Shown one piece after another: positions 1 through 58,571 of a stretch of DNA of 64,000 nucleotides. The stretch spans positions 372,001 to 436,000 of the forward strand of contig JAQGEQ010000287.1 in assembly GCA_034620365.1 (NCBI GenBank), read 5' to 3'. A program made the translations under genes and the position numbers. The notes beneath the pieces were generated by a model. The model did no database searches, was not told where the DNA came from, and saw only the letters and a program-made list of their open reading frames with translations. Numbering within the stretch: the first letter of the stretch is position 1; every line of letters starts with the position of its first letter. The stretch comes from Pegea sp. RAD2-039 (lineage: Eukaryota; Chordata; Thaliacea; Salpida; Salpidae).

Positions 1-1087
1 CTTTTGGTCCGTGTAATTTTTCTTCTATTATTTGATTTTTGAATTTATTACTAATAAGTGTAATTAGCATTGAATTCTTTATTTCAACATCGACAATAAG
101 AGATGACTTTGCTGAAGTTGTCTTGCAAAAATAATCAAACTCTTCTAAGCTTGTAATAGCATCTCTACGAGTGTGACCAATTTCAGAGTTTTGTCTACTT
201 GAGTGACTAATCTGAAAGTTACCATCAAACCATTTATGACTAGCAACCTCATTGATATCAAGTCTAACATGTTCTTTGTAAGCTAACATCTTTTCGATCA
301 AATTAGCGAAGTGTCTTGTAACAGTTGAGGGACAGGTTATTTGAACTTCACCTTGTTCATGTGAAAGCCATTTATTAGCTAGGCATTCTTCTGGAGGTTT
401 TGATGTTGCCATCTCAAAAAAAGTGATTCCCAGCGCCCAAATATCAGACTTTAAGGGGTCGGAGTTTTTTTGGACAATTTGAGGCGAAACGTAACCTATC
501 GTTCCCATTTGCTCAGTACTACGACCTGTACATTTTCCAGCTAAACCAAAATCACACAACTTAATAATAAAATCTTTATCTAAAAGGAAGTTGTGGGGTT
601 TGATATCACGGTGAGCGATATTCTGATCATGTAAATACTTTATAGCACTAACCATCTCTCTTGTAAATGATTTTAACAAATTCATTTTTATGGGGAAATT
701 TTGAGCAATGTATTCAAATAAATCTCCATGTTCATAAAGACTCATAAGTATGTAAGCAGAATTGTAACTCGTATAAGTATCATGAACCGTTGCTATATTT
801 TCATGTTTTAAACTTTTTGCAAACTTTAATTCTGGTTTGGTCGCTCTTTGAAATCTTGTGTTATGTTTGACTTTTCTCATTTTTTTCACAGCATATAATT
901 TGTTGGCTGATCGATCAAAAGCGGAAGTAATGAGCCCAAAGGTTCCGGTACCAATTTGTTTCCCCATTTTTAATTTCCTAGCGTTAACTTTTTCTGGTGG
1001 TGTATCTCCAAAACGGGAAAGATCTTCACTGAAAAAACTATTTTCAGAATAAGACGCTTCTTCTTCATCCGTTGTCAAATCACTCAT
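1..1087 (-). CDS. CHK1/TSSK-like Ser/Thr protein kinase, copy A (3' end off window)
   Basis: Reading the minus strand from the ATG at 1087 gives 362 codons without a stop up to the window edge, so the gene is intact but its C-terminus lies outside. It has a glycine loop (GTGTFG), VAIK-type lysine (YAVKK), HRDIKPHN catalytic loop and DFG. The APE motif is replaced by SPQ. After the kinase domain comes a tail that resembles the KA1-like C-terminus of CHK1. It is intronless in a window where nearly every other gene has many introns. It is the inverted twin of the kinase starting at 4121: C-lobe almost identical, nucleotide-binding loop strongly different. Likely a cytosolic or nuclear kinase; substrate unknown. 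A TSSK-type identity is the alternative to CHK1-like. Confidence 0.88.
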   Translation of the reverse strand, partial: MSDLTTDEEEASYSENSFFSEDLSRFGDTPPEKVNARKLKMGKQIGTGTFGLITSAFDRSANKLYAVKKMRKVKHNTRFQRATKPELKFAKSLKHENIATVHDTYTSYNSAYILMSLYEHGDLFEYIAQNFPIKMNLLKSFTREMVSAIKYLHDQNIAHRDIKPHNFLLDKDFIIKLCDFGLAGKCTGRSTEQMGTIGYVSPQIVQKNSDPLKSDIWALGITFFEMATSKPPEECLANKWLSHEQGEVQITCPSTVTRHFANLIEKMLAYKEHVRLDINEVASHKWFDGNFQISHSSRQNSEIGHTRRDAITSLEEFDYFCKTTSAKSSLIVDVEIKNSMLITLISNKFKNQIIEEKLHGPK

Positions 1088-1914
1088 ATTAAGTAGTAGA
1101 AGTTTCTTGCAGTTAATAGACAAGTTTATTCAATTGAAAAATATTACAATACTAAGTTATTGGAGTTTTTCAGATAGGATGGTATCAAACCTTAACTTAT
1201 CTGTTTAAAATTTGTAAATAGTTTAGGTTAAACTGCACCAGCTTACATTGCTGAATCTATCAAACCTTCCTTTGTACCTCCTTCTTTTTAGCTATTTTTT
1301 GCGTAATTTATCTTTTATTATTATAATAAAGCAAGAGTTATATTGATATTTATAATAAAAATTATAAAATAATGCTATACATCTAGCGATAGAATATAGG
1401 TTTACCTGTACAATATCTGCCTATTTGTTTTATTAACAGCTAAACCAAAAAAATACATAAAACAGAAATTCTGACAATTTAACTCATCCAACCTCAACAG
1501 CTGTTCCTTTAAACTTGTCTAAGCTCATACGAATTAAAATTTGATTTTTTAAATATTAATTATAAAATTCATTAATGCTTGTAAGTTTTACTTTGGCTTT
1601 TATCAGGATTACAGTACGTAGACCTTTCAAAACGTATTCCAAAATAGTTCTATAAGACTTAATACATTCTTCTGATTCGTTAACTAACTTAATTCTTATA
1701 CATCATAAAGCAAACAACAGAATTAAACTTTGATAATCAACAGATTATTTAAATAAATGTTTAGTACATTTCAAGTTTAAAACATAATTTAGTAGTATAA
1801 TTGTTACTTTAGCTGATTAAACTTAGTAGAAGTTTGTAAAATTTAAATCCTAGGTTTATAATAAACCATAAGGATTTTCCTGAATTTCTGTTCAAACTAA
1901 AACAAAATCATGTC

Positions 1915-3029: not shown

Positions 3030-5377
3030 TGTTTTAACTTTAATTGTGAAAAAAAAACTTTCCAATTCAAAAAGTTCATAGGTACTTTTGTAGCGCAATA
3101 ATTATGCTGCAGTGTTTATTAAAATAAATATAATATAGTTTATTTAAAATCATTTAGAAATATCTTTCAATACTGTTTTCTATCATATTTGAAAATAAAA
3201 TTTGCATTTATTTTAAAAAGATAAAATAATTATATTTTTATAAGCAATAACAATTTTGAAACTTCAAACTATAAGAATGAAAAATGTTAAAGTTGCATTT
3301 ATTTTAATTCAGTGATTTTAGCCAGAGAGTTTTTATGTGAAGATTTTTGACAAGATTTTGTTTTAGTTTGAACAGAAATTCAGAAAAATCTTTATGGTTT
3401 GTTATAAACTTAGAGATTAAATTTTACAAACTTTTACTAAGTTTAATCAGCTAAAGTAACAATTATACTGCTAAAGTTTGTTTTAGGCTTGAAATGTACT
3501 AAACATTTATTTAAATAATCTGTTGATTATCGAGGTTTTTTTTTGCTTTACGATATAAAGCAATTACGTTAGTTAACGAATCAGAAAGATATCTTAAGTT
3601 TTATAAAACTATATTTGAAATTTTTTTGTAAACTTTACGTTCTGTAATCCTGATAAAAGCCCAAGTGGAATTTTATAGAATCAATGAATCTTATAACTAT
3701 TATTTAGAAAACAAATTTTAATTCTTATGAGTTTAGAAAAGTTTTAAAAAACATTTGTTGAAGTTTGATGAGTTACATTGACAAAATTATCTGTTTTATG
3801 TATTTTTTGGTTTAGCTGTTAATAAAACAACTAGGCAGATATTGTATAAGTAAACCTATATTCTATCGCTAGATGTATAGCATTATTTTGTAATTTATAA
3901 TAAAAATATTAAAATTAACTCTTCCTATATTATAAGTATAAAGATAAATATAGCAATGTAAGCTGGTGCAGTTTAACCTAAACTATTTACAAATTTTAAA
4001 CAGATAAGTCAAGCTTTGATGCCATCTTATCTGAAAAATTCTAATAAATTAGTTGGTATTGTAATATTTTTCAATTGAATAAACTTGTCTATTAACTGCA
4101 AGAAACCTCTACTACTTAATATGAGTGATTTGGCAACGAAGGGAGAAGAAACGTCTAATTCTGAAAATAGTTTTTTCAGTGAAGATATTTCCCGTTTTGG
4201 AGATACACCACCAGAACAAGTTAACGCTAGGAAATTAAAAATGGGAAAACTAATTGGTAAAGGAAGCTATGGGTTCGTTGCTTCCGTTTTTGATGGATCA
4301 GCCGATAAATTTTATGCTGTCAAAAAAATAAGAAAAGTAAAAGATAACTCAGAAAGGCAAAGAGAAGTCCAACGAGAATTAAAGTTTGCAAAAAGTTTAA
4401 AAAATGAAAATATAGCTGCGGTTCATGATACATATACAAGTTACAATTCTGCTTATATACTTATGAGTCTTTATGAACGTGGAGATTTATTTGATTACAT
4501 TGCTCGAAATTTCCCCATAAAAATGAATTTGTTAAAATCATTTACAAGAGAGATGGTTAGTGCTATAAAGTATTTACATGATCAGAATATCGTTCACCGT
4601 GATATCAAACCCCACAACTTTCTTTTAGATAAAGATTTTAGAATAAAGTTGTGTGATTTTGGTTTAGCTATAAAGTATACAGGTCGTAGTACCGAGAAAA
4701 GAGGAACGATGCGTTACTTTTCGCCTCAAATTATCCTAAAAAACTCCGACCCCTTAAAGTCTGATATTTGGGCGCTGGGAATCACATTTTTTGAGATGGC
4801 AACATCAGAAGTACCTAAACAGTGCCAGGGTTATCAATGGATTGTTCAGAAACAAGGTGAAGTTCAAATAACCTGTCCTTCAACTGTTACAAGACACTTT
4901 GCTAATTTGATCGAAAAAATGTTAGCTTACAAGGAACATGTTAGATTTGATATCAATGAGGTTGCTAGTCATAAATGGTTTGATGGTAACTTTCAGATTA
5001 GTCACTCAATTAAAAAAAACTTTAAAATTGGTAACACTTGTACAGATGCTATTACAAGCTTACAAGAGTTTGATTATTTTTGCAAGACAAAGAAAACCAT
5101 GTCATCTCTTTTTGTCGATGTTAAATTAAAGGACTCATTGCTAATTACGCATCTTAAAGAAATTTTCGAAAAGCTGCTAATAGAAAACAAATTAAATGGA
5201 AAAAAATTTAAATGCATATCCGACAAAGAAAAGGGAATATGTTTTATGGTTGATATTAAAACCCACTTTATAAATAAGAATTATTCAACAATTAAATTCC
5301 TTCTGCTGCAAGGGTGTCAAACTAAATTTCTGGTCCTAATAAGAACTATTCTCACTTTGGTGTTTTCTAATAGTTAA
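3030..5377 (+). repeat. Right arm of large inverted duplication
   Basis: Inverted counterpart of 1-2395, containing kinase copy B and its 5' flank. It lacks the SINE found in the left arm, so it preserves the empty site (near 3345-3360). Confidence 0.85.
4121..5377 (+). CDS. CHK1/TSSK-like Ser/Thr protein kinase, copy B
   Basis: 418 residues, single exon. I chose the ATG at 4121 because the upstream part of the open frame has no ATG and the same position starts copies A and C. Kinase motifs: GKGSYG loop near residue 47, YAVKK lysine, HRDIKPHN, DFG, and SPQ in place of APE. The last ~100 residues resemble the KA1-like domain of CHK1, which in that family autoinhibits the kinase; the total is slightly shorter than CHK1. 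All catalytic residues are present, so it should be active. Role inferred only from family; the APE change is shared with copies A and C and so is ancestral. Confidence 0.9.
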   Translation: MSDLATKGEETSNSENSFFSEDISRFGDTPPEQVNARKLKMGKLIGKGSYGFVASVFDGSADKFYAVKKIRKVKDNSERQREVQRELKFAKSLKNENIAAVHDTYTSYNSAYILMSLYERGDLFDYIARNFPIKMNLLKSFTREMVSAIKYLHDQNIVHRDIKPHNFLLDKDFRIKLCDFGLAIKYTGRSTEKRGTMRYFSPQIILKNSDPLKSDIWALGITFFEMATSEVPKQCQGYQWIVQKQGEVQITCPSTVTRHFANLIEKMLAYKEHVRFDINEVASHKWFDGNFQISHSIKKNFKIGNTCTDAITSLQEFDYFCKTKKTMSSLFVDVKLKDSLLITHLKEIFEKLLIENKLNGKKFKCISDKEKGICFMVDIKTHFINKNYSTIKFLLLQGCQTKFLVLIRTILTLVFSNS

Positions 5378-8300: not shown

Positions 8301-8885
8301 ACTTTTAACCAATACTCAATAAGATCTTTCCAAAACTGAAGATAAATTTGGATTTTTATGAGTTTACAGCAGTTTTTAAGAACAGTTATTGAGGTTTAGA
8401 GATTTAAATCAACAGGAATATCTATTTTATAGAGTTCTACCCTATCTCTTAATAAAACAAACAAGCAGATATTGTACAAGTAAAGATTTATTCTCTTACT
8501 AGATGTATTGTGCTATAGTATGATTAGTATTATTTCTATTATTAATAAGAATAGTTGTAAAATTAAAGCCCAACTTTAGGATAAGATTATCAACCTACCT
8601 GGCAGTGTATAAAGACTTACTTTGTATTCCCAATAAAGCTAGAACTTCAATATGTGATGAAGATTTCTTAAAAGTTTGATATTAGAGAGAATGCTCTTTA
8701 ACAAACTAACAAGCCTAATCTCACTTGTTGTCGTTTCAAGCTTTACAACTAAAATTGTTATGTAGAAAACAAACCTAATAATAAATATCATAACATATAA
8801 ATATGTTAAATTTACTAATTTTTTTAATCTTTTGTTTTTTTTAATCTTTTTTGGTACATCAAATGTATGTACAGATATACTTAGT
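5378..8885. other. Intergenic region between kinases B and C
   Basis: A/T-rich, with one SINE (6315-6518). From about 7750 to 8540 it keeps recognisable similarity to the 5' flank of kinase B (for example 8450-8520 against 3815-3885), so the ancestral duplication included upstream DNA. The short open frame at 5912-6097 has no family resemblance and is probably chance. Confidence 0.5.
6315..6518 (+). mobile_element. tRNA-derived SINE, second copy
   Basis: Same head (A box and B box) and same 3' hairpin tail as the element at 1915. It differs by an extra inverted segment in the anticodon-arm region (6342-6367) and by a 15-bp direct duplication of the tail (about 6465-6491), then ends in an A-rich tract. 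No clear target-site duplication was found. Confidence 0.8.
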
Positions 8886-10157
8886 ATGACGACTACAATA
8901 GTATCGAAAAAGATTAATCAGGTATCTAGGGATGTTTTCCAAAATAATTTATTCAGCGCAGGCATGAGCCGTTTTGGAGACACACCAACACAAGAAGTTC
9001 CTGTACACGATTTGCAAATTAAGAAAACAATTGGCTCAGGAGGTTTTGGAGTCGTATTTTCTGCTGTTGATCCAACGACTGATCAGTTTTTCGCAATAAA
9101 AAAGATAAAATATCAATTAAGCGATCCGACAAGCGAAAATTGTGCTAAAAAAGAATTAGAATTTGCAAAAAGATTAAAACATAGAAATATTGCGAAAGTT
9201 TTTGGTACATATACGAGTAAAAATTCTGCCTACATAGTTATGGGTCTCTGTGAAACTGGAAATTTAAAACGTTTTATCAAGATTAATTTTCCATTAGATA
9301 TCAGTTTGCTGAAGTCATTTACAATAGATATGGCCAGTGCTGTTAAGTATTTACATGTTCAAAAGATTGCTCATCAAGATATCAAGTCTCGCAACTTCCT
9401 TCTAGATGAAAATTTGACGATTAAATTGTGTGATTTTGGTTTGACAGGAAACTGTACAGGTCGTACCTATAACAGAAGAGGAACGCGACAATACTTTTCA
9501 CCTCAAATTGCTCTAGAGAATTCACATCCTTTAAAATCTGATATCTGGGCACTAGGGATCACTTTTTTTGAGATGGCAACATCACATCTCCCAGATGAAC
9601 ATAAATTGATTACTCGCATGGCTAGACGTAAAGAAATAAAATTTAAAATTATTTGCCCTAGCTTCGTTCATAACGATCTTGCTGATTTAATTGAAAATAT
9701 GCTGGCTTACAGTGAATACTATCGATTTAATATCTATCAAGTTACTAACCACCGATGGCTTAATAATAAATCCAAAACTAGCAAAACTCAAGTAAAACAT
9801 AAAGAGGTTGGACACACACGTACAAATGCTATTTCAAGCCTGGGAGAGTTTGATTATTTTTGTGAGACAAGCCAAAGCAAACGATCTGTTTTTATTGATA
9901 TTAAATTAAAGTTTTCTTTGGTTATTACACTTCTTTCAGAGATTTTCGAAAATCAGCAGATAAATTATGTAGTATATGAGAAGAAAATTAGCTGCATGGC
10001 TGAAGATGATAGCAAGTTGTCTTTCTTGGTTGGTATTGAAGATCATTTCTTAAATAAGAATATATCTACAGTAAAATTTCTTAAGCTAACAGGGCCTCAA
10101 AATGATTTTCTTTCAATACTTAGAGTTATTTTCGAATTGGTGTTTTCCAATAATTAA
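8886..10157 (+). CDS. CHK1/TSSK-like Ser/Thr protein kinase, copy C
   Basis: 423 residues, intronless. The ATG at 8886 aligns with the starts of copies A and B. It has a glycine loop (GSGGFG), FAIKK lysine and DFG, but the catalytic loop reads HQDIKSRN instead of HRDIKPHN: the arginine that normally contacts the activation-loop phosphate is glutamine, while Asp, Lys and Asn of the catalytic loop remain. The APE position is SPQ as in A and B. A KA1-like tail follows. It is clearly older than the A/B split. It may be active but regulated differently from RD kinases. Confidence 0.9.
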   Translation: MTTTIVSKKINQVSRDVFQNNLFSAGMSRFGDTPTQEVPVHDLQIKKTIGSGGFGVVFSAVDPTTDQFFAIKKIKYQLSDPTSENCAKKELEFAKRLKHRNIAKVFGTYTSKNSAYIVMGLCETGNLKRFIKINFPLDISLLKSFTIDMASAVKYLHVQKIAHQDIKSRNFLLDENLTIKLCDFGLTGNCTGRTYNRRGTRQYFSPQIALENSHPLKSDIWALGITFFEMATSHLPDEHKLITRMARRKEIKFKIICPSFVHNDLADLIENMLAYSEYYRFNIYQVTNHRWLNNKSKTSKTQVKHKEVGHTRTNAISSLGEFDYFCETSQSKRSVFIDIKLKFSLVITLLSEIFENQQINYVVYEKKISCMAEDDSKLSFLVGIEDHFLNKNISTVKFLKLTGPQNDFLSILRVIFELVFSNN

Positions 10158-23700: not shown

Positions 23701-24033
23701 TCAACGTATTTATATCGTCGGGAAGTCGCCTTCTAAAAAACAAACGACCAGTTGTAGTTGCACGGTTGGTTGGTTTGTCATGCATCACTGAACATCATCC
23801 AGATCCGCATTTGAGTCAATCAAATTTTTTAGCTGCTTCTAAAAGGATATTCAGCTCATTTAGAAGAACTCAACCGTCCACAAGTCCTTGCAGCTGCTAA
23901 GTTTGATGCTCAGGTAACTAAAAGGTTATTTTCAATTATAAAAGACTCAATTTTTCAGGAGATATTTGGTAAGAAATGTTTTCGGTTACCTGGCACCAAT
24001 GGAAGAAAGCGAAGAAGTGATTCTACTGTTTGA
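17738..24033 (+). CDS. PITPNM: Membrane-associated phosphatidylinositol transfer protein (RdgB/Nir family)
   Basis: 29 in-phase exons give about 1098 residues (human PITPNM1 is 1244). Exons: 17738-17815, 17969-18101, 18160-18363, 18419-18579, 18904-18961, 19114-19247, 19302-19332, 19379-19561, 19613-19657, 19708-19742, 19863-19973, 20022-20158, 20621-20801, 21321-21419, 21471-21620, 21713-21752, 21804-21948, 22011-22087, 22138-22206, 22265-22318, 22372-22523, 22575-22700, 22821-22961, 23015-23139, 23192-23340, 23393-23576, 23627-23764, 23833-23913, 23959-24033. Order: PITP lipid-exchange domain (about 1-256), FFAT motif EFFDACD (322-328) for binding VAP on the ER, DDHD domain, then LNS2 domain (FSVDGSF, DPKVR). 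It should move phosphatidylinositol and phosphatidic acid between ER and plasma membrane. Splice choices near 19742, 21620 and 22206 are the least certain. Confidence 0.93.
19362..23588. repeat. Cluster of TGACGTCA and CACGTGA palindromic words
   Basis: Perfect TGACGTCA at 19362, 19385, 19472, 19836, 19986, 20123, 22550 and 23581. CACGTGA at 21956, 21975, 21994, 22529 and 22546, plus CACGTG at 23465. Most lie in 45-65 nt introns, several beside splice sites; three TGACGTCA copies are in coding exons. I found no exact TGACGTCA elsewhere in the window, and only three other CACGTG words (near 13997, 60308, 62519). They match binding words of CREB/ATF (bZIP) and bHLH factors, but function is not shown. 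Confidence 0.75.
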
Positions 24034-24136
24034 AGATCGGATCTTTTAAATCTTCCTCACTTTAATGTGTGCAATAATGTTCATTGATGTTACTAGTTTT
24101 AGTTACTGTTTTATATCTCAACTTTTTTCTATCTAC

Positions 24137-24142
24137 AATAAA
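24137..24142 (+). promoter_or_regulatory. Poly(A) signal AATAAA of the PITPNM-like gene
   Basis: AATAAA about 104 nt after the stop codon. Confidence 0.55.
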
Positions 24143-27100
24143 GTTAACTTGTCTCGGATTGTTTATATACTCGTGGAAATTACAACTTTTTATGTATTAC
24201 TCAAATTTGATATTTAAATTACAAACTAATTGGTTTAATTCTATAAAAAGTTTAAATGTCATTAAGTTTAATTTAATTTTGAAAAAAGTGACCATTTTAG
24301 TCGGTATATGGTAAATCATACATACAGGGGAAAGAGTGATTTCGAAGAGATGATATAGAGATAAAATAACGACTCTTATTCTTTTGGAAGGCTAGTACAA
24401 TTGTTGTAACCGATTGTTCGTTGTGGAACGTTTGAAATCTATATCAGAAGAGTATTTTACCGCTTACGTAAAAGTGTTATCAAGTTATTATGATACCTTC
24501 CAAAATACGAGACCATTATGTCGTCGTTCAGTAAGTCGTTACGTACTGTCGTCATTAGCTGCCTTTTAAAGTTGAATAAAGCTCTTTTCAAAGTGATTTT
24601 TATTACAATTTATTCCATTGTTCAATTTTTTTCTTGGATGAATTGTTGCAGATGTTTTTTGGTTTTATTCGAGCTTAGCGCAGGTAAAACTTAGCAGTGG
24701 TTAAAATAGTTTCTATTTTTTTTACTGATATTAGTTTTTTTACTGCGACAAATTTAAAAAGAAAAGGAGCGTTTGTTGAAACCAGACAAGCTGTCCATAA
24801 ACCAAATAGTCCGTCAGCAGCCATGGAGTGGCGTCAGTGAAAGACAACTTTTACCATTTTCTTAGACAAGTGTGTACTGAATGAGAATGGTGAACACAAA
24901 TGGGCTGCACTTGTGAATTTTGCAGGCTCAGAAGTGTACCAAGTCTTTTAGATCTGTCGGACTTATGTATAAGCTAAAGCGACGCTAAAGCAGTTGAATT
25001 TAATGGAGCTTAAGGAGAAGCACCAAGCAAAACTGACGGTAGCGGCCATGAAAGCAGTTTGTTTAAAGTGTGAAGGTAACAAAACGTTGGATTAAGTACA
25101 TGTTTCAAATGTAGGAAGAAGGAACATGATAGTCATCTTCAGGTAAGGTATCCCAAGAAACAATCAAGAAGGCAAAGCATGGAAAGAGTTGAAGTGGTTA
25201 GCTGAGGGTAGGGCGTGATAGGATTTACTCGATTGTCGGGTAAATCAAACTAACCAATAGTAGATGTCTTTATAGAACGCAGGGTACTCAAGGCGTTTAT
25301 TTATACCGGATACTTAAAGAGTTTAAAAATTAAACTTTTAGAACTTTCTTAAGAAGTTATTTTAATTTTATTCGGTGACTCTAAAGATTTTTCTTAAGAT
25401 TCCTTCTGCGGTATCAACTTTGAATTAGATCTTCAGAGAAGTCAACGCTGTCGATCGTTTTTCTTCAAGCTGCAAGATCTGCTGCAAGTTGAGTATTGTA
25501 CACCCAGCTGTTATAACAAAGATTTCACGTGCTTCTTGTACCTTCTTTCCCTATATCTTTTTACAACATCTCTGTTTCTACAGCCAGATAAAAATTTACC
25601 AAATAGTACAATTTTTGGTAGGCGTTTACTGTCCATTCTAAAAGGTCACCAACCGAAAACAACATCAACGGGGTAGTTTAACTCTTGCACAACAGCATTA
25701 GGGACTAAGTCCCATAAGTTGATCGGGTTTGTTGAAAGAACTCACTGAAAGACTTGATGTTTTATTTTTGTCAAGTCTTTTTCTATGAAAGAATTTTATC
25801 TGAACCTCTAAAACTGGGGTGGACTTTATCTATTTATATAAATAATTATGTCTTAAAGCAGTGTCAGAGCTAAAATTGCAAATTAGCCGGAATCGTGACA
25901 GTTAAGTGAACTCTTGGTGGACTAATTCAGGTCAATCTAGCTTCATAACTTTTCCTAATATTCATAAAATAAATTACTTGAGTCAAGCCATAATCAACTC
26001 CTGCACTAAAATTTGTTTACAAGATGGTACCTTTACCGCTAGTATTTTCAGGTGTTGGTCATATTGCTGTCTTGCCCTTGTGCCATTTCCAAAAATCCGC
26101 GGCGTATACTTAGCACACATCCCCTCATCAATGCCTCACACCAAATTAGTTTTTGTAAGAATCGACTTGTGAAATTAGAAAGTGAATATTTTTGCAGCAT
26201 GCCAGTCCTAAAACTTATAATGCAAAGTAAACACTCATATAGCTTTGATGATTTCTGTAGAAACAAAGCAAAATTTATTAATTGTTTATAATATCTATAT
26301 TCTAATTGAGTTCTCGGAGAAGCTCCTAATCGTCTTCAACACGCAATACTCCAAATAACTGGGTCTTTGACAAACACTGTCCCCAAACAGATGATATATA
26401 GGCCTTGTTGTCCGAAATGTTTCTTTGAGCGTCGAACTAATTTATAGATTTATTGTTTGTGGTGCATAAGTTAGAAGTTAATCTTTCTAACTGTATGATA
26501 CCACATTGAAGCAATTGAATTATTACTATCACATCTTGTATTACAGCGCTTCGTTAGGTTGAAAAAGAGGGAAGAAGTGCTTTGATTTCCTTGTAGCTTA
26601 TTAAGTTGCATAATTACACATAAGAAACAAAAAGTTATAATTTAGATTAGCTTCTTGGTATAGATAAACAAATTTAAAAATATTTTCATTTAAAAATGTG
26701 TGTTTAAGTTTAACTAAAATTTAGCTTACTTTGTAAGATTGTAGAAATCTTGTTCGGTATTATCATATAAGAAGGCTTTATTTATTACGTACTTTACTGG
26801 ACTCATTTTGAATTAATATTAATCATAGATCGAAGTTTTAATTCTAAATAGGTGATATTTAAAGCTTTAAAAATGATGTATAACAAGAAACTTATATTTT
26901 GTCTAAATTTAGGGGATTCCCAGAAAAAATTACTGCAACTAATTTTTATAATTTTGACGAAATATGAAGCTTTAAGTGATTTATGTATTTAAATATATTT
27001 TAGTTATAGTATTTTTGAATAAATATTATTAACTTTTTTTGAATTATTTATAAAACTAAGGTTACCTTTCTGTATTCAGTTTTTTTTTTTTGTATATTCA

Positions 27101-27310
27101 GTTTAAGTTACGTCTAAGTTATGCCCAAACCTATATAAACTCATAAATACTTTTATAGATAGATTATTTTAATTTGATAGATTTATTAATTAAAAGTCTC
27201 TTATGTAAGTCAAATTTGTTTTGTTTTTATTCTAATAAATTTTTTTCAAATTATAATTTCAAAAATTTTTTTTATAGTAACCTGTATGATCTTAAACTAA
27301 AAAAGAAGTC
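24143..27310. other. Intergenic region with retroelement debris
   Basis: 24.3-26.4 kb looks less A/T-rich than its surroundings and carries a decayed gag-like fragment (24771-25240). Overlapping short open frames on both strands at 25906-26291 match no family I know. 26.4-27.3 kb is A/T-rich with nothing recognisable, and should include the promoter of the next gene. Confidence 0.45.
24771..25240 (+). pseudogene. Decayed gag-like retroelement fragment
   Basis: Around 24871 a short frame resembles the capsid region of Ty3-like gag proteins (WAALVNFAGSEVYQVF) and then hits a stop. Further on (25100-25135) lies a zinc-knuckle-like segment, CFKCRKKEHDSH, with the expected spacing up to the histidine but no final cysteine. 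Several stops and frame changes separate the parts, so it is dead. No LTRs, protease or reverse transcriptase were recognised. Confidence 0.35.
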
Positions 27311-30300
27311 ATGAAAAATTTGCAAAATTCTTCAAAAGAAGAGATTTATAAGAATTTATTAGGAAATCCAACATATATTCTTGCTCCAATGGTTGCTCAA
27401 AGTGAATTAGCTTGGAGAATGCTTGCAAGAAAGAATGGTGCACAAATGTGTTTTACACCAATGTATAGCTCATATACAATGTTAAATAGTGTGTCATATA
27501 GAAACCAGGTAATTAATCAGTTTATTTTATGAATAGATAAATATTAATTGAACTGAATATTTTGTAAAGGTCCTTAAAGAGGTTTCTGAGTCATCTGACA
27601 GACCATTGATAGTTCAATTCTGTGCAAATAATCCAAATGACTTTCTAAATGCTTCACTTTTAGTTAAAGATCATTGTCAAGGAGTTGATCTGAATCTCGG
27701 CTGTCCTCAGCATATAGCAAAAAAAGGTTAAAGTTTTTTTATGTTTACTTATTACTTTAAGTAATTTATTAATTTATGTTTTGAATAATAGATGTTTTCA
27801 TTAATCTTTATTAATTTTGAATCTAGCCTCTTTCATTTAGCGCATGTGATCACTTATTTCGTAAAATTTCATTTTTAAGGACATTTTGGTGCTTATCTTC
27901 AAGATGAATGGGATTTAATCCATAAGATCATTTCATTGACTAGTGATCATTTATCAATTGGTGTTTCAGCCAAAATTAGAATATTTCCTGAAGTAATTTG
28001 TGTTTACAATTTTCCTTATTTACATTTTTTTATGTATTTATAAACTTATCATATAAATCTTTGCTTTATAATTAAAAAAATCTTTAAAGTTGTTCTTTTA
28101 CAAGAATAACTGCAAAGTATTAGTTTGATGTTTTGAGTTTTCATGAAATTAAACTGTGGTATGTAAACTTTAAAGGTATCAAAATCAATTGAATATGCAA
28201 AGAGGTTGGAATCTGCTGGCTGTTCATTCATTACTGTTCATGGTAGAACTAAAGAACAAAAAGGAAACTTAACTGGATTGGCTGATTGGGATCAGATTCG
28301 GAAGATTAAGTAAGATTCAAATATTAAATCATTTTATTTTAGAAATTTATTAAACAAGCAAAAATTAATTTAGATTTCTGTTATCATTTTCAAATCAGTA
28401 AAGTATAGATTGAAATTTTTTAAGGAACAGCTTGACAATTCCAGTAGTTGCTAATGGAAATATTCAATACTTTGAAGATATTGAACGCTGTATCAAAGCA
28501 ACTGGTGTAGATGGCGTCATGATAGCAGAGTCCCATCTTACTAACCCTGCTATTTTTAAAAGTATTTTTTTCAGTGTAATACTTTTGTAATATTACTTTG
28601 TGCTTAAAACTAAATATTTTTTTACTACACCTTGTTCTAATTTTTAGATTGTTACCCAAAAGTCTTCGATGCTGTGGAAGAGTATTTTGAAGCTGTTGAA
28701 AAATATCCTTGTTCTGTAGCTACAATGAGAGCACATGTATTCCGATTGTGTAAGCATAGTTTAACTGTAAGTTGAAACTAATTACAAATTAATCTATTTA
28801 GTTTTGCATAGTTAATTTAGTTGATTTAATGAAATTAATTCAATTAAAAAATGCGAAATTATATTGGGTGAAAACCCTATCATGAAAACTTTTCAATTGT
28901 TTTTAGATACATACTGATATAAGATCACAAATTGGAACTGCTTCAACTTTAGACGAACTAAAGAGTCTAAATCTGCAGTTAAAGCAAAAGTGTTTAGAAG
29001 ACGTAAATATATTTTTAACAATATACTAGTAATGTTTTATTCAAGTATAAAATAAAGTTTCAAAGAAAATAATTATCAGGAAGAGAAGAAGTATTATGGA
29101 CTCGATGTAATAAACAATGATAAGAAGAGATTTCTTCCTCATTGGATATGTCAGCCTTATGTTCGAACCGGTAAAATCTATTAGAATAATTTCTGGTCTC
29201 TCATCTAAAATTTAATTTACAAATTAATATTGTAGTTCAAGAAATTAGAAATGACAATGATCAAAACGAAAAAGAGGATGAATCAGAACACATCTCTGTA
29301 AATATTTTACTTCAATTGTTTACAATAATCTGTTTTAATTATTTATTTTAATTATTAGAAAAATCAACTTCGTCGAATTAGAAAGTATGAAAAAAAAGTT
29401 GAGATAAAAAAGATGAAAAGAAAGCAGAAAAAAGAATTAAAGAAAATAAAGATGAGAGAAAATCATATTCAGGTCAGTGAAAATCTTATCACATTTCTTC
29501 ACATACCACAACGTACTCCTTTAGTGGTGTTCTTTGCAACACCAGATTCCAAAATAGCTCAAATCTCTCGTACACAAAACTGTTAATATCCTAAAAAGCT
29601 TCGCTGCAGCAAGAGAACTTGCTTGATGATAAGGATAATAACAATAATCGCTCCAATTACCTAATTTTATGATATATAATTTATCTTTAGCGTCTTTTCA
29701 TGATAAATACAAAAGATTTAAGATCAGATTATTATTTACTTAAATGATATTTTCAGGTAGTAGATTGTTTCAAAGAATTGTTCTTGAATTTTTTTGAAAG
29801 TTAGATTAGTTTATATCATAATAAATAATTGATAAAAGCTTTTGCAAAAAGGGAAATCCACAATTGATTACAGCAGATGACAGAAGAAAAGACAACCTAC
29901 TAAAAGCTAGTAAAATGGAAGCAGCACTTTGTGATAATAGTGGAGCTTTAAAGTTTTGTGTTGATCTGTCATGGTCACATCACATGAACGATAAGGTTGA
30001 CCACTTCTGTTTTCAATTTCACTTTAATAGTTCAACTTACAATTAGTTGTAACACTTCTCAGTAGAGTACTTTAAAATTTAAAACAAATTTTAGGAAATT
30101 TCTAAACTATCAAGTCAGCTTGGAAGGTTATATGGAAGCAATCGTCAATCAGCATCACCAGCACATGTTTATTTCAGTGGTAACCTCTCTTTTTTAAATT
30201 AGTAGAATTTCAATTACTAACTAATTAAATTGGACTTAAATTTCAGGGTTTTCTACAAACAGTTTGTTGTGGAAGGAGTGTATACGTAAACACCAAGGAT

Positions 30301-30901
30301 TCCAATCATATAAGATCGAAATGACTACGAAATGTTGTCAAGAGTTGTTTCAATGTGAAGATGTTGTATACCTAACTCCTGATGCGGAAATACGTGAGAT
30401 TAAAAATTTGTAGATCATCATAAGTATTTTTTAACTGACAATTATTTTCAATGTTTAATGTTTGAGTCCCTAAAAGCTCAGCTGCAAATGTTTACTTGAA
30501 ATCAATGTTTCAGCTTTGGATAAGTTAGAAGAAGATACTGTGTATATAGTTGGAGGTTTAGTTGATGAAACTGTAAGTAAAAAGTTGACATTGAATCATG
30601 CTCAATCACTTCAGTTTGTAACTCGTCGCCTACCTATTATTGAACATATGCATCGATCTGGTAATCATAAGAACTACTCAACTGTACTTGCAATTAATCA
30701 AGGTAGTTAGTTTGCTAATTATGTGATTCTTAAAAGATAACTTTGATTACTTTCTCAGTTTTTGACATTTTGTTGAAATTTAATGAAACCAAATGTTGGG
30801 GCTCCTCACTTTCTATCGGAATGCCAGCTAGAAAGGGATTTGTTCTAAATAATGCACTTTTGCAGCCAAAGTGTTACTTAAAGATACTTTTTTTTAAATA
30901 G
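27311..30901 (+). CDS. DUS1L-TRMT10B fusion: tRNA dihydrouridine synthase plus tRNA m1G9 methyltransferase
   Basis: Exons 27311-27508, 27570-27726, 27880-27992, 28176-28309, 28425-28561, 28648-28766, 28907-29002, 29080-29170, 29236-29297 and 29359-29472 are in phase. They encode a DUS1-type FMN reductase: NLGCPQ with the catalytic Cys at residue 111, the VHGRT motif, and a CQPYVR end. The last of these exons (residues 370-407) is the basic N-terminal segment typical of TRMT10B ([13 protein letters not shown]). The SPOUT methyltransferase follows in exons about 29877-29995, 30095-30179, 30247-30393, 30514-30702 and 30759-30901, with GGLVDE holding the Asp known to be catalytic in Trm10. There is no in-frame ATG between the two enzymes ahead of the TRMT10 basic segment. 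The junction 29473-29876 is unresolved: the best donor (29473) is phase 0 and the acceptor is phase 1, so a weaker donor at 29477 or an extra exon (near 29758-29801) is needed. About 635 residues in total. Confidence 0.8.
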
Positions 30902-30968
30902 GAAATGTCTTCATTAGCCATTATATCTTTTGAGCTGATCTTGTATTAAATTTTATACGTGTATGAAA

Positions 30969-30974
30969 AATAAA
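30969..30974 (+). promoter_or_regulatory. Poly(A) signal AATAAA after TRMT10B part
   Basis: AATAAA 68 nt after the stop codon at 30901. I saw no equivalent signal between the DUS1L and TRMT10B parts in the right place to end a separate transcript, though I scanned only by eye. Confidence 0.5.
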
Positions 30975-32069
30975 CTTTGTTTTGATTATTATCGTTTTAG
31001 GAATATTACGGTAAGTAATAATGAAAAATCAGTTTTATTATTAACATCTGATTGAAAAAAATTTAGTTTTTCACAAAACATTTTTAATTTTTTGTAAACT
31101 ATCGACGTTTCACTTGATTTAGAGCAGTTGAGGTACAATTTTTAGGCCTTTTTAATACAGTTAGAAAATAATGTTGGTGTTAGTCATTTAGAAAGACATA
31201 GTTTCAATGATTGTTCAAAAATTATGTTTAAAAACCTTTAGCTAAACAATCGATAGGTAAATGGTATCTTGCCTGCGGTTCTAGTGATAAGCTATACAAA
31301 CCCAAAATATTTACACTTAGCTTACTATGTTAACTAATGAACTGATTCCAATAGTATTGTAAGTTTTATACAAAATTGTTTTAATAAATTCTTTTAATAC
31401 CCATTATTTAATAGGTAAGTTGTAAAAAGGCCTTTATTTTTTTATAAATACTAAAAGCAGAAAATAGAATAAATTAGCGAATAAAAATTTCTTAAAATTA
31501 TTAAACTTATTTTAATCGAATTAATTAAATTTTTTTTGTGTTGAGCTTTTCAAATAAGTAATAGAAAAGTCAAAACGTCCTTTTTAGAATGGTTATCATT
31601 TTGTAACTGGCGGCCAAAAAGTCAACAAGACTTCGTAAACAACTAAAATCATTGCGTAAATTGCTTATTCCAAAACTATTTATTTGTATAATTGTAAACA
31701 TTTTTAAGTTTTTATACTAAGTCGTTTATGTTGATAAATAATATATTTTTACAGTATTAACAATTGATTACTGTCATTACTGGTAATGTATTATCATCAC
31801 GACTTTAATTATTCCAGATAAGTTGTTTTTTTATTTAGTTTACTATTAAGTGTATAGTTAATTAAGTTTTTATATTTGTAAAATTTATTTAACTGATCTG
31901 AAATTTAAACTAAAAATTTTAAAATGATTTTTTTAGTTAGTCTTGATAGGATTATTTTTAATTTAAATCATGCTTTTATGAAAACTGCTGAAGTAACGTT
32001 GAGTTATCTGTGGGGTTAAAACAATCTTTTTGAAAAACCTGAATCTGGAATCTAAGTTGTCATTAAAAC
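30975..32069. other. Intergenic region, nothing recognised
   Basis: 1.1 kb of A/T-rich DNA between two genes on the same strand. No open frame or repeat of note. It should contain the paracaspase promoter and possibly an undetected first exon. Confidence 0.5.
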
Positions 32070-35000
32070 ATGAATTTTCACTCACTGCCCACAAAAGCTG
32101 AGAATTTTTTGAATGAAATTGATGGAAGATCATATGTGTCTTTAGATGAACAGAAGATTGATCAGTTATCTTTTGAAGTATTTTGTAGATTTGATATAGT
32201 TACCTAAAAATTGTTAAATCTAAAAACTTATTAAAACTAAATAATTTATTATAAAAAAAAGAATAAAATTGTTTCTATAATTTTCTTCCTATCTTTGATT
32301 AAAGATTTCTGGTTATAATTTAAATTTTATTTTTTAGATGAAAGAAAATATAACAATAAAACCTCATATTAGTGTCATAAACCACCCTAAAAGTAAACAA
32401 CTTCATATTGGAGATGATTTGACGTTATACTGCTCTGTTCGTAGCACTTGTAGGGTTCACTACCAATGGTTTTTTAAATCTAAAGAGCTAGTGGGTGAAA
32501 CTAATCAAATGTTGATGATAAATAATGTTTCAGTTTGTAAACAAGGCTTTTATGAAGTGATTGCAACTTGTTCATGTTCTAAATTATTTTCTGTAAAATC
32601 TAATGAAGCTTTCATTAGCATAAGTAAGTTATTTCTAGATTCTTCCATCTTGAATCTATTTTAATATTTTTCTTTTATAGTTCCTCTTTCCTGTAATGCT
32701 GATGTAAAAGAGTTATGTGCTACAGATAAAATTGCCTTATTAATTGGAAATGATATATATGACAATAATAGTAATTTAGAATGTGCTGCAGTTGATGTCA
32801 ATATACTTGGTGATATATTACGCGTAAGTTCTTGTATGATTATTATATGAAAATTTTAGAATTGCTGTTCACATACATGTTTAAAAATACGTTAATTTAT
32901 TTTTAGTTTAAAGTAATGTTTGAGGTTGATTGTGAAATTATAAAATCCAAAGATTATTTGAAGAAAAGGTCTTGTTAAAATATGTTACTTTCTCTTTGAT
33001 TTAGTTTTCCATTTGATTAACCTTTGAACACTGGTATTCAATTTTTTCTTGGAAAAAATTGGTGAGCTAACTTAAACAATAAAATTATTATTTTTCAGAA
33101 TGAAATGAATTTTAAAACATTGACATTTGTAAATTTGAATTTAGTTGAATTTCACGTCGCACTTAAATGGTTCTATAACCTTTGTAGAAAAGGATGTTAT
33201 TGTAAGTTTGTTCAACAAATTTTACTTTGAGCATAATAAATTTGATGAACAATCTAAAGATTTGTGTTTTCGAACTAATTTTTTTTTCTTTGCTATAGGT
33301 CTCTTTTACTTTGCTGGTCATGGTTATGCAAGTAATAATTTATTATATTTACTACCCACTGATGCACCATGTATGAATGATATCACAGCAAGATCTTGTA
33401 TAAGTGTTCAAAATTTAGCTGAAACTTTACAAAGACGATGTGAACCTGAGCTGACAGTCATTCTACCTGACACTTGCCGAGTGAAGTAAATTCGGCCAGA
33501 AAGCAATTGTTAAATAGTGACCTATAAGAACTAACTATAAGAACTCAGAACAAAAATAATCAAATTGTTTATTTAACAAATGAAACACCCGGTAGTATAT
33601 TTGCGATGATTAACTTATATGAGTTGTAATAGTATTATAGTTCTGATATATTCTTGTTAAAACGCAGTAACCCTGTAACAAACCCAAATCGGCAAGTAGT
33701 ACCTACAGTGAGAGGAAATGTTGTGTTTGCTTATGCCACGTGAGTTGCTGCTTTTCGAATACAATCGCAAAATTATGCTAAAATCCACTTATAAATCAAA
33801 TTAAGATTTATTATTTTGTATAAACAATTTATTTACTAAAAAACGTAGCAGATTTACTCCAAGTAATATCTTAGTAATATTTTTTAGCATGAACAGAGGT
33901 GTTGCTTATGAAAGAACCAACTGCAAAAGAAGTTTGTTTGTCAATGCATTACAACATCATTTGCATAAACCCTTACGTGTAAATGATATGTTAACAAGAG
34001 TCGGGGACGAAGTCGCTAAATACGGTTATCAGGTTATTCGATTTCACTTTTTATAATAACCAAGTTATTAAACAGTAATTTTCAAAAGAAGTTTACGTTG
34101 AAAACAAACCTTTTTAATGATAGATTGTTGAAGTATGTCATACCTTATCGCAATATCGATGTCTTACTGATCATGTAATGCCAGATCAAGCTTTTCATAG
34201 CTTGGAAAGTTGGTGGACTAGCATACATGGTGAGAGATTTAAGTAGCAATCATCATGACTTATTTCTTCTTTTATGAGAGTAGAAACTCCTCTACCTATT
34301 TGCTTTTCTTATTCAATCTGTGGGATTACTGCTGCATTACATTTTACTCCAAAACTTACAAATGTGATTCTACTAGAAGCAAAAGTGATTGAGTTAGGTT
34401 CAACTTTAGATTGCCAAGTTGAAATTGAATGGATAAAAATGGTAATTTGATAAATCTATCACCACAGACTTTAATTTTTTTAATGATGTTGTTAAGACTC
34501 ACTATTTGAGAAAGATAATTTAATAATTGGTTAGATGCAGTCCCAGAAAGTCCTCTTGTCAGATCGTAACAATCAAGCTCTTGAAGACGAGAAGTCATAT
34601 GATGCTATTCAAGTTTCTGGTCTTCAAAAGGTTTGACTTTTTCATTTAAAACTCACTTTTACATCAAGCCTGTTTTACAAATTTATCTTTTGTGCAAATA
34701 CTTCTGTAATCTTTAATTTTTCTTTCAGCTTTTTCAACATCTATCAGTTTATCTTTTGCTAACTTTTATCCAAGCCGATGGCAAATTTAAACATGTTAAA
34801 AGGATCCAGCATCAAATAAAACTTCCTTTTATCTACTTTTGGAACGATAATTTTGTACGGTAAGCTTACATGCCAGAGCATTTTGTATTAAATGATCTAC
34901 AATTCATTTGTTGGTATTTACTTTTCAATTCAAATTGACATATTGTGGCACTTATTATTTTAAACATTTTAAAATCAAAAAATTGCCTCGAAAAAACTCC

Positions 35001-56314: not shown

Positions 56315-56661
56315 TTTTTATTTATTCATTTATTTTTTACACTAAACGCAAAGAGGAGGGTGCCTGAAGAGAGCACCTCTCGCTAACACACTTTCTTACA
56401 AATGATACTTATTTTATATAATTAAGTTAGAAATATAGAAAGAAAAAGATGTAACACATGGCATTGCAGTAGTCCTCTTACTAACAATTACATAGAATGT
56501 TTATAAAATAAAAAAGAGAAAAAAATACAGTTTAGAAATGACAATGTTGGTAATATTATAACGGTTCAACTTCTTCTTGAACAGTAAAGAGATTCTGACA
56601 TGACAATGTCTGATGGCAGCTGATTCCAAGTACTAATTGTGCGGTATGAGAAAAAATTTCT
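56315..56661 (-). mobile_element. 5'-truncated LINE: reverse transcriptase C-terminus and 3' tail
   Basis: On the minus strand 56661-56587 encodes the hallmark C-terminal block of many LINE polymerases (RNFFSYRTISTWNQLPSDIV), then breaks frame. About 200 nt later come the hairpin tail (56393-56345) and a TAAA-rich end (56340-56315). The same tail ends the SINEs at 1915 and 6315. It is inactive. The clade is uncertain (jockey/CR1/Rex-like by motif). Confidence 0.65.
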
Positions 56662-57412
56662 CTAATTAAAGTACCAGGTGATATCGGCTTACAAATTTAT
56701 AATACATTAACAATTACTGAATAGAGTAGATTTAGCAAAACTATAATAAGAAGGAAAATAATTCTTTTTTAACAAATTATTTATCTTGTGTCTGTTAAAA
56801 AATTTATATAATTACTCACATTTGAGAAATAGTTTGGTTTCTTTTCAATAAAGATAAACTCATTACAAAAAATGTAGTATTCTTGCTTTCATAAGTTTCA
56901 TTTTATACAGTAGCTTCCCAATTCCATTTGCGATATGATTTAGTTTTGTATATATATCTTGAATATATGCAATTTGTTTTTTCAGTAATTGTGTTTTCTG
57001 TATTCTTTCAATTAATTTTATCATTAAAATTTGTAAATTTTACGATCAAGTAAATTATGGAAATTAATCAAGTAGATTATTTTGAAAATGTTATAAAAGG
57101 TTGTTTAACGAAAAATTAAATTATCAAAAAATGATTCTTCGTTAAAATTGTTGTACCCATAAGAATAACTAAAATAAAAATTTTACAATATTATTATCTA
57201 AGTTTTCATGTAGGTTTCCTAATAACGAGAGTTTAGCTTAATTATTTTATGAGGTATATACCCAAACGCATGGTTGATTGAGTTGGTAGAAAAAAGTTTG
57301 ATTCAAAAATTGTTGACTAGATTTAAACAAGCATTTGAATTTAATGGCAATTGCTAAGTAATTTTATCTATTGGTAAGCTGACTTATGCTTGAACTATGG
57401 AAAAAGACCCTT

Positions 57413-57501
57413 CTTATTTATTTATTTATTTATTTATTACAATAAATGTGAAGGAGGGTGCCTAAAGAGAGCACCTCTCGTTAACACACATTCTCACATA
57501 T
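57413..57501 (-). mobile_element. LINE/SINE 3' tail fragment with (AATA)n end
   Basis: The same hairpin tail as at 56345-56393 and in the SINEs, ending in a run of about seven AATA units (57413-57440). No tRNA head lies upstream of it on the minus strand, so it is more likely a LINE 3' end than a SINE. Confidence 0.65.
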
Positions 57502-58571
57502 TAGATCCAAATTTGAATTACGAAATTAAAATAATTTCAATCAGAGTTTTATTAGGGCTGTTACATGCTACATTCGAATACAAAACTGAGTAAAACTGTG
57601 ATTGTTTCTGAGTCTTTAATGTTTATTTGAAGCTCTCTATATGATGGGGAAAATAAAAGCTTGAAACTTAATATGAGTTTTACTAAAAGTTTACACTAGA
57701 ATATCAATTTGAAATGAGTTCTAAGTTTAAGAATACTTGTAACATAATTTAAGTGAATAGTACCAATTGAGTCTTCATTTTTTTCTCGTTAAATATACTA
57801 ATAAGATAAAGCAAAATTGTATATAAACTTTGCTTGATAAAAGAGTTTGATTATTAAATAAAGCTGGTATCTTTCACTAGGATAATTGACAACATAAAAA
57901 ATTCATTTTATTTGTAAAACTGCAAAATAATACTTTATTTTTCGGAATAAAACTCAGAACATAAATATCAAAATATTTAATTCTTCTAATCTGAAGCATA
58001 GGAATTACATCCTTACATCATCAAAATGACATTATTATTTACATTTTCATGATTTTTAAAAAGTGAGACTTGTTTATATATTTGTTTATTTTGACATCAA
58101 TCAAAATAATATCTAAGGGTATTAATAATTCATTAGTCTTCATAATATGATTTTTATAACTTGAATAAACATGCTATCAAAATTTTTAATCGAATAAAAT
58201 ATTTTCAATTAAAAGAATATAGCTTTAGAAATGAATAAAGTTTTAATTTTTACCAAACTATTAATTGTATGTAACTTTTAATAACTTTGCTTGAGGTTTT
58301 ACATAACTTTCTTCAAGGAGATAAAATCATTTCAGAGGATTCATCAGCAATTTTATTCTTACAAAAATTGAAATGAAATATCACCAGACCGGTAAAATAT
58401 TAAAATATAAAATTCATGCTTTTCAAATGTAGAAAAACTACTAATAAGCCAATAACAAGTTGCAACAAATTTAATTTGAATTACTCATATATAAATGTTT
58501 GAAACTTTTATCTATGAACATAAGCAGGTAAATATAATTATTATAAATGCGGCTTTTACTTCTCTTTTGGC

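Follow-up and report, generated by a model that had tools for sequence, protein, structure and literature searches.

Results

Two tRNA-modifying enzymes in one chain of exons

We analyzed a 64,000-nt stretch of the Pegea sp. RAD2-039 genome (positions 372,001 to 436,000 of contig JAQGEQ010000287.1; referred to below as the window), which belongs to an AT-rich, 105.7-Mb assembly of 387 contigs. Between positions 27311 and 30901 of the window, on the plus strand, lies a chain of 15 exons (E1 to E15) in which the exons of a DUS1-type tRNA dihydrouridine synthase are followed by those of a TRMT10-type tRNA methyltransferase. The exons are separated by GT-AG introns and share a single unbroken phase that ends in a TAG stop codon at 30899 to 30901. 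The initial annotation had placed exons of both types here on the same strand, and the phase of the chain and its two Pfam domains bear this out.

The 15 exons translate to 642 amino acids (aa), or to 649 aa in an alternative with a micro-exon. Pfam identified a Dus domain at residues 23 to 301 of the 642-aa chain (E = 1.2e-66, 225 bits) and a tRNA_m1G_MT domain, the SPOUT domain of TRMT10, at residues 451 to 620 (E = 2.1e-28), with a linker separating the two. When the halves were run separately, the DUS1 part matched PF01207 (E = 1.9e-67) and the TRMT10 part matched PF01746 (E = 3.2e-29); both halves are far above chance. A scan with NCBIfam returned no Trm10 family, and the bacterial Dus and other barrel-enzyme families that it listed were all under their cut-offs. 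In a DNA search of the genome for another copy of the locus or a second allele, none was found, and the sole match was the window locus itself.

We consider it somewhat better than an even bet that this is one real fusion gene, in which an extra DUS1 copy is joined in one reading frame to a TRMT10B-like gene. Of the readings that we compared, fusion is the likeliest. The evidence is moderate and depends on a single exon, E9, which links the two halves and whose splice sites are weak (Table 1).

The DUS1 half and the other Dus genes of the genome

The initial annotation counted ten in-phase DUS1 exons. Eight of these (E1 to E8) are secure, while E9 is ambiguous and the chain belongs to TRMT10 from E10 onward. 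The motifs of the Dus domain are intact, namely, LNLGCPQ with Cys111, SAKIR with Lys150, and VHGRT with His178. We take Cys111, in the GCP motif, to be the counterpart of C107 of human DUS1L, and presume the roles of Lys150 and His178 in the same way. In the human enzyme, C107 is the catalytic cysteine (PMC11445529).

A search of the genome for Dus matched five loci, with scores given for the best candidates only. Outside the window, inspection by eye led us to name a DUS2-like gene on contig C28, a DUS3-like gene with CCCH-type pieces on C1, and a DUS4-like gene on C3. Contig C101 carries a separate full-length DUS1L whose tail, read by eye, contains the Cys-rich stretch CVLCGNPAGEKCVFKSCRLCC. 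The window DUS1 shares 186 identities with this copy in 412 alignment columns, and the alignment continues past E8 into E9 and E10. A Cys-rich C-terminal tail is a feature of animal DUS1L; it is absent from the window chain, and none was seen by eye in the list of open reading frames (ORFs) of positions 24000 to 35000. Because the genome keeps its full-length DUS1L on C101, the window copy is, as judged from these sequences, an additional DUS1 paralogue that lacks the Cys-rich tail and is distinct from the canonical enzyme. The fusion of DUS1L with TRMT10B proposed initially survives as the likeliest reading, but with a paralogue in place of the canonical DUS1L. Four introns that we read by eye in the C101 gene sit at positions unlike those of the window introns, which suggests that the duplication is old or that introns have been reshuffled.

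Contamination was considered as an origin of the C101 gene and ruled out by repeats common to C1, C46, and the window and by matching GC content. The C101 repeat is 97 to 98% identical over 366 to 389 bp to copies on C46, which bears a TRMT10A-like gene, and on C1, and it is 72 to 96% identical to copies within the window. A dispersed repeat family at 56316 to 57507 of the window occurs also on C1, C46, and C101, with identities of about 71 to 98%.

Since a canonical DUS1L exists elsewhere, the window copy may be dispensable, and its exons could be the remnants of a decaying duplicate that happens to lie upstream of TRMT10B. Stops and broken sites would be expected in such remnants; instead, eight exons are open, the Dus domain scores 225 bits, the GCP, SAKIR, and VHGRT motifs are intact, and close to half of the aligned columns (186/412) are identical to the C101 copy. 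We regard decay as very improbable.

The TRMT10 half and the other Trm10 genes

A phmmer search with the TRMT10 part matched 4fmw, RNA (guanine-9-)-methyltransferase domain-containing protein 2 (E = 3.4e-22). When the genome was searched with the same part, the strong matches were at the window locus; others fell on C21 (TRMT10C-like) and C46 (TRMT10A-like), and an additional weak match fell on C6 (E = 0.1). By exclusion and from known motifs, the window gene looks like the only TRMT10B of this genome; its resemblance to human TRMT10B specifically is our assumption. The TRMT10A-like gene (C46:262000-270000, about positions 3130 to 3300 of locus L016) starts with about nine EPKSE-type repeats.

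The basic segment encoded by E10 aligns loosely to the Trm10 and TRMT10C chains 9xzq and 8rr1 and, with gaps, to 4jwh. Thirty-five of its residues were compared with the TRMT10A of this genome, and 103 of 10,000 shuffles gave as good a match. The motif ISKNQ is common to the window chain and this TRMT10A, with IS encoded by the last two codons of E9. According to the initial annotation, the segment has no in-frame ATG. This applies to its first 18 residues but not to the whole, which has in-frame ATGs at 29413 and 29452. Because no ATG precedes 29413 in E10 and a TAG lies in frame directly upstream of the exon, those 18 residues need an upstream start. The residues 5' of ATG 29413, which belong to a basic segment of low complexity, can also be aligned, though loosely, with Trm10 and TRMT10C chains.

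The join between the halves

We scored splice sites with a matrix trained on 21 introns (11 from this gene, 4 from the C101 gene, 4 from TRMT10A, and 2 from a MALT1-like gene). The 24 introns scored were these 21 plus the three joins in question, and leaving the joins out of training lowers their scores slightly.

Several results weigh against E9 as the link of a fusion gene. Of the 24 introns, none has a weaker donor than that of E9 (2.0 bits), and only one has a weaker acceptor than that of E9 (1.8 bits). The E8 donor (7.1 bits) and the E10 acceptor (7.6 bits) score in the ordinary range, and splicing E8 directly to E10 shifts the frame. Dinucleotide shuffling of the 188-nt spacer between E8 and E10 produced a phase-clean open exon in 900 of 2,000 shuffles and one as good as E9 in 429, of which 70 had an exon of at least 60 nt. 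As many as 61 of 204 genomic stretches of 188 nt (overlapping, mostly noncoding) link as well as E9 does. Because shuffles and genomic stretches often do as well, splice phase is no proof of E9, and we rejected phase alone as too weak a support for it. By composition, 19 of 220 windows between 25000 and 27200 are as exon-like as E9. Compared on its own with the tail of DUS1L, E9 is matched by 601 of 10,000 shuffles, and compared with the TRMT10A segment, by 783; for ten E10 residues alone against the DUS1L tail, the count is 986. The spacer (29171 to 29358) contains neither AATAAA nor ATTAAA, a weak argument for a single transcript, as 176 of 435 noncoding control stretches of 188 nt are also without them.

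Other evidence argues for E9. Composition shifts at its borders, with a GC fraction of 0.31 compared with 0.20 and 0.13 in the flanks. Its exon-versus-intron score of 9.7 is within the range of the other exons of the gene (2.5 to 15.9, these exons being in the training set), and this score is reached by 3 of 163 overlapping windows from introns or the 3' flank. When E9 was taken together with ten E10 residues, only 22 of 10,000 shuffles matched the C101 DUS1L tail as well, at a nearly equal spacing from the conserved end, and 5 of 1,384 random open peptides equaled E9 in their match to the DUS1L tail. When the TRMT10 query was extended by E9, the phmmer score of 4jwh rose from 80.2 to 86.4 bits and that of 9xzq from 80.8 to 84.2 bits; those of 4fmw (82.5 to 82.3 bits) and of TRMT10C chains such as 8rr1 (76 to 76.2 bits) barely changed. 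E9 can be read as a DUS1 tail, as a linker, or as the N terminus of TRMT10.

The weakness of both E9 sites, next to an ordinary E8 donor and E10 acceptor, would also fit two overlapping units that make no fusion protein. E9 would then be no exon, or one rarely used, and E8 would be spliced to E10. Skipping of E9 leaves a DUS1 of 355 aa (ending in CQPYVRTEKSTSSN) that stops, after seven residues of shifted frame, at a TAG at 29379, just past the conserved DUS1 end and 31 nt before ATG 29413. TRMT10B would start at this ATG, either by reinitiation on a bicistronic mRNA or on a transcript of its own, made from an internal promoter or with a different first exon. Eleven candidate first exons combine a donor of at least 4 bits with an ATG whose phase fits E9 or E10, but they lie mostly within DUS1 exons. 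The exon-like composition of E9 speaks against such an arrangement, as does the alignment to Trm10 and TRMT10C chains of the residues before ATG 29413, ISKNQ included, albeit in a basic, low-complexity segment. We see overlapping units as a possible but clearly less probable account, with roughly one chance in four.

If the two genes formed an operon whose transcript is separated by trans-splicing of a spliced leader, the apparent fusion would be a chimeric gene model. The leader would be joined to the E10 acceptor, and its terminal AUG would start TRMT10B as M-KNQLRR. That acceptor is good (7.6 bits) and opens E10 in phase 0, which would place the AUG at the end of a leader in frame. A leader joined to the acceptor of E9 instead would have its AUG out of frame. 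The operon reading would also lose the E9-encoded IS of ISKNQ; the gap between the genes has no canonical poly(A) signal, with the limited weight noted above. In some groups, 5S rDNA arrays house leader genes; one such array here showed no evident leader gene by eye, and Rfam returned only 5S in it, although no whole-genome search for a leader was made, the search having covered this array and, with Rfam, 99 kb. Leaders ending in AUG and gene models wrongly fused over operons are described for flatworms (PMC12582326); for 45 gene pairs of S. mansoni, the median distance between cistrons is 99 bp. To our eye, the rDNA of this genome resembles that of annelids or molluscs more than that of parasitic flatworms, and for annelids PMC7854359 suggests that there are no operons or trans-splicing. 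We consider an operon unlikely at this locus.

Further downstream, the initial annotation described the join from E10 to E11 as not phase-clean. This did not hold, as at least two phase-clean routes are available, and the frame can be kept by either candidate. The first leads from the donor at 29472 (9.5 bits) to the acceptor at 29852, whose 0.7 bits are the lowest acceptor score among the 24 introns. The second uses an acceptor at 29757 (10.0 bits), a 43-nt micro-exon (29757 to 29799) with a donor of 6.3 bits, and an acceptor at 29874 (3.5 bits); the composition of the micro-exon is intron-like (-2.2). The same intron contains an exon-like block at 29493 to 29674 on the plus strand (62-nt windows starting at 29493 to 29613, with scores up to 16.9), which is perhaps an old insert. 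With this intron as the query, a blastn search of the window and the fetched loci gave only the self-match and hits no longer than 49 bp.

The presumed substrate

Human TRMT10B has a single nuclear-encoded tRNA assigned to it, tRNA-Asp(GUC), according to PMC7293042. A short anticodon-arm word of tRNA-Asp(GUC) occurs in the Pegea genome in 19 exact and 4 one-mismatch copies, and ARAGORN called tRNA-Asp(gtc) in all 12 loci that were fetched. With positions assigned by eye, 11 of the 12 genes have A9 (one has T9) and 11 have U16 (one has A16). The presumed substrate thus offers both modification sites, since 10 of the 12 genes carry both A9 and U16; this fits the initial proposal that both sites could be modified on one tRNA.

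At 8 of the 12 loci (L044 to L050 and L055), a tRNA-Ile(AAT) gene of the same orientation precedes the tRNA-Asp gene by 7 to 14 nt, which gives the impression that the pair has multiplied as a unit.

Table 1. Exons and candidate signals of the DUS1-TRMT10 locus (positions in the window)
Feature	Positions	Strand	Basis or remarks
E1, DUS1 N terminus with ATG	27311-27508	+	phase 0 out, CAG|GTAATT; Dus domain
E2, DUS1, LNLGCPQ motif (Cys111 of chain)	27570-27726	+	alignment to C101 copy
E3, DUS1	27880-27992	+	exon chain, Dus domain
E4, DUS1, VHGRT motif	28176-28309	+	exon chain, Dus domain
E5, DUS1	28425-28561	+	exon chain, Dus domain
E6, DUS1 C-terminal part	28648-28766	+	exon chain, alignment to C101 copy
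E7, DUS1	28907-29002	+	exon chain, alignment to C101 copy
E8, last secure DUS1 exon; end matches LPHWMCQPYIRP of C101 copy	29080-29170	+	donor 7.1 bits; alignment
E9, linking exon, acidic peptide, candidate cassette exon	29236-29297	+	acceptor 1.8 bits, donor 2.0 bits
E10, basic N-terminal segment of TRMT10 part; ATGs 29413, 29452	29359-29472	+	acceptor 7.6 bits, donor 9.5 bits
Possible micro-exon between E10 and E11, 43 nt	29757-29799	+	acceptor 10.0 bits, donor 6.3 bits
E11, SPOUT domain start (or from 29874)	29852-29995	+	acceptor 0.7 bits
E12, SPOUT domain	30095-30179	+	exon chain, Pfam domain
E13, SPOUT domain	30247-30393	+	exon chain, Pfam domain
E14, SPOUT domain	30514-30702	+	exon chain, Pfam domain, phmmer
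E15, SPOUT domain end, stop TAG 30899-30901	30759-30901	+	exon chain
Possible polyadenylation signals, ATTAAA and AATAAA	30945-30974	+	sequence words

Neighboring genes and ribosomal DNA

Downstream, at 32067 to 34300 on the plus strand, is a gene that encodes an Ig domain and the caspase-like sequence GLFYFAGHGY; we take this gene to be a MALT1-type paracaspase. Three similar long ORFs at 2 to 1129 (minus strand), 4079 to 5374 (plus strand), and 8766 to 10154 (plus strand), of 376, 432, and 463 aa, are kinase-like by eye and look like a local family of protein kinase genes.

A search for COX1 gave no match. A short universal 18S word was found at four places in the genome, three of which were retrieved as loci and read by eye. 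Partial rDNA copies on C1 (L011), C125 (L013), and C27 (L014) are 89 to 99% identical over the aligned pieces. On C27, the 28S gene is cut short at GACTCTCTTAAG, a break point that is presumably the R2 retrotransposon site.

Discussion

If the window holds a fusion gene, E1 to E8, the small linker E9, and E10 to E15 would be cis-spliced into one mRNA that encodes a protein of 642 aa (649 aa with the micro-exon). Its N-terminal Dus domain is predicted to reduce U16/U17, and its C-terminal SPOUT domain is predicted to methylate A9, probably on tRNA-Asp(GUC). The DUS1L encoded on C101 would then serve other tRNAs, with the fusion enzyme adding both D16 and m1A9 to tRNA-Asp. The splicing of the chain, the protein, its activity, its substrate, and any regulation of it are what we infer from the DNA.

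Inclusion of E9 may be only partial, given that its splice sites are weak. Transcripts that include it would encode the fusion protein, whereas those that skip it would encode a free DUS1 of 355 aa and leave TRMT10B with the start at ATG 29413. We speculate that E9 could be a switch exon. When it is in, a bifunctional enzyme would bind tRNA-Asp(GUC) once and place both D16 and m1A9 on it; when it is out, DUS1 would be free and TRMT10B would be silenced or rerouted. DUS1 would have been duplicated, with the general copy keeping the Cys-rich tail and the second copy gaining a methyltransferase tail that steers it to one tRNA. We offer this combined scenario as a conjecture that is rather more likely to be wrong than right, at about one chance in five. 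The junction itself may have arisen within a basic motif rich in SK that is present in both proteins, as ISKKKMKK in the tail of DUS1L and as ISKNQ at the N terminus of TRMT10.

To our knowledge, Dus synthases and Trm10 methyltransferases are separate enzymes. A literature search, judged from its listings, found no Dus-Trm10 fusion; protein-architecture databases were outside this search and may hold such fusions. One paper names both TRMT10B and DUS1L, and its table gives them as two separate enzymes.

A natural fusion, if true, would tie the enzymes for D16 and m1A9 to one substrate, and their coupling could then be tested. Such a fusion would also be a clear example of how an enzyme, once duplicated, gains specificity through a swap of its tail, and it would bear on which tRNAs a DUS1 visits and on whether D16 and m1A9 are added together. 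If the locus is instead an operon or an overlapping pair, it would be a caution against fused gene models that are built without RNA data.

The locus resembles the chimeric models over flatworm operons (PMC12582326) in that two unrelated enzymes share one apparent frame and one strand, are separated by a short gap, and lack a downstream start. It differs from them in that the frame is continuous through E9, and no leader is shown here. Like animal DUS1L, the window chain has a Dus domain with the GCP cysteine motif and the VHGRT motif, and it shares the LPHWxCQPYxR end with the C101 copy; however, a TRMT10 domain stands where the Cys-rich tail would be. The TRMT10A-like (C46) and TRMT10C-like (C21) genes have the same methyltransferase domain, and TRMT10A also has ISKNQ, but no Dus match was reported at either. 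As in TRMT10B, a Trm10-type SPOUT domain is accompanied by a basic N-terminal segment; in the window chain, however, this segment has no start codon of its own before it, and a Dus enzyme precedes it in phase.

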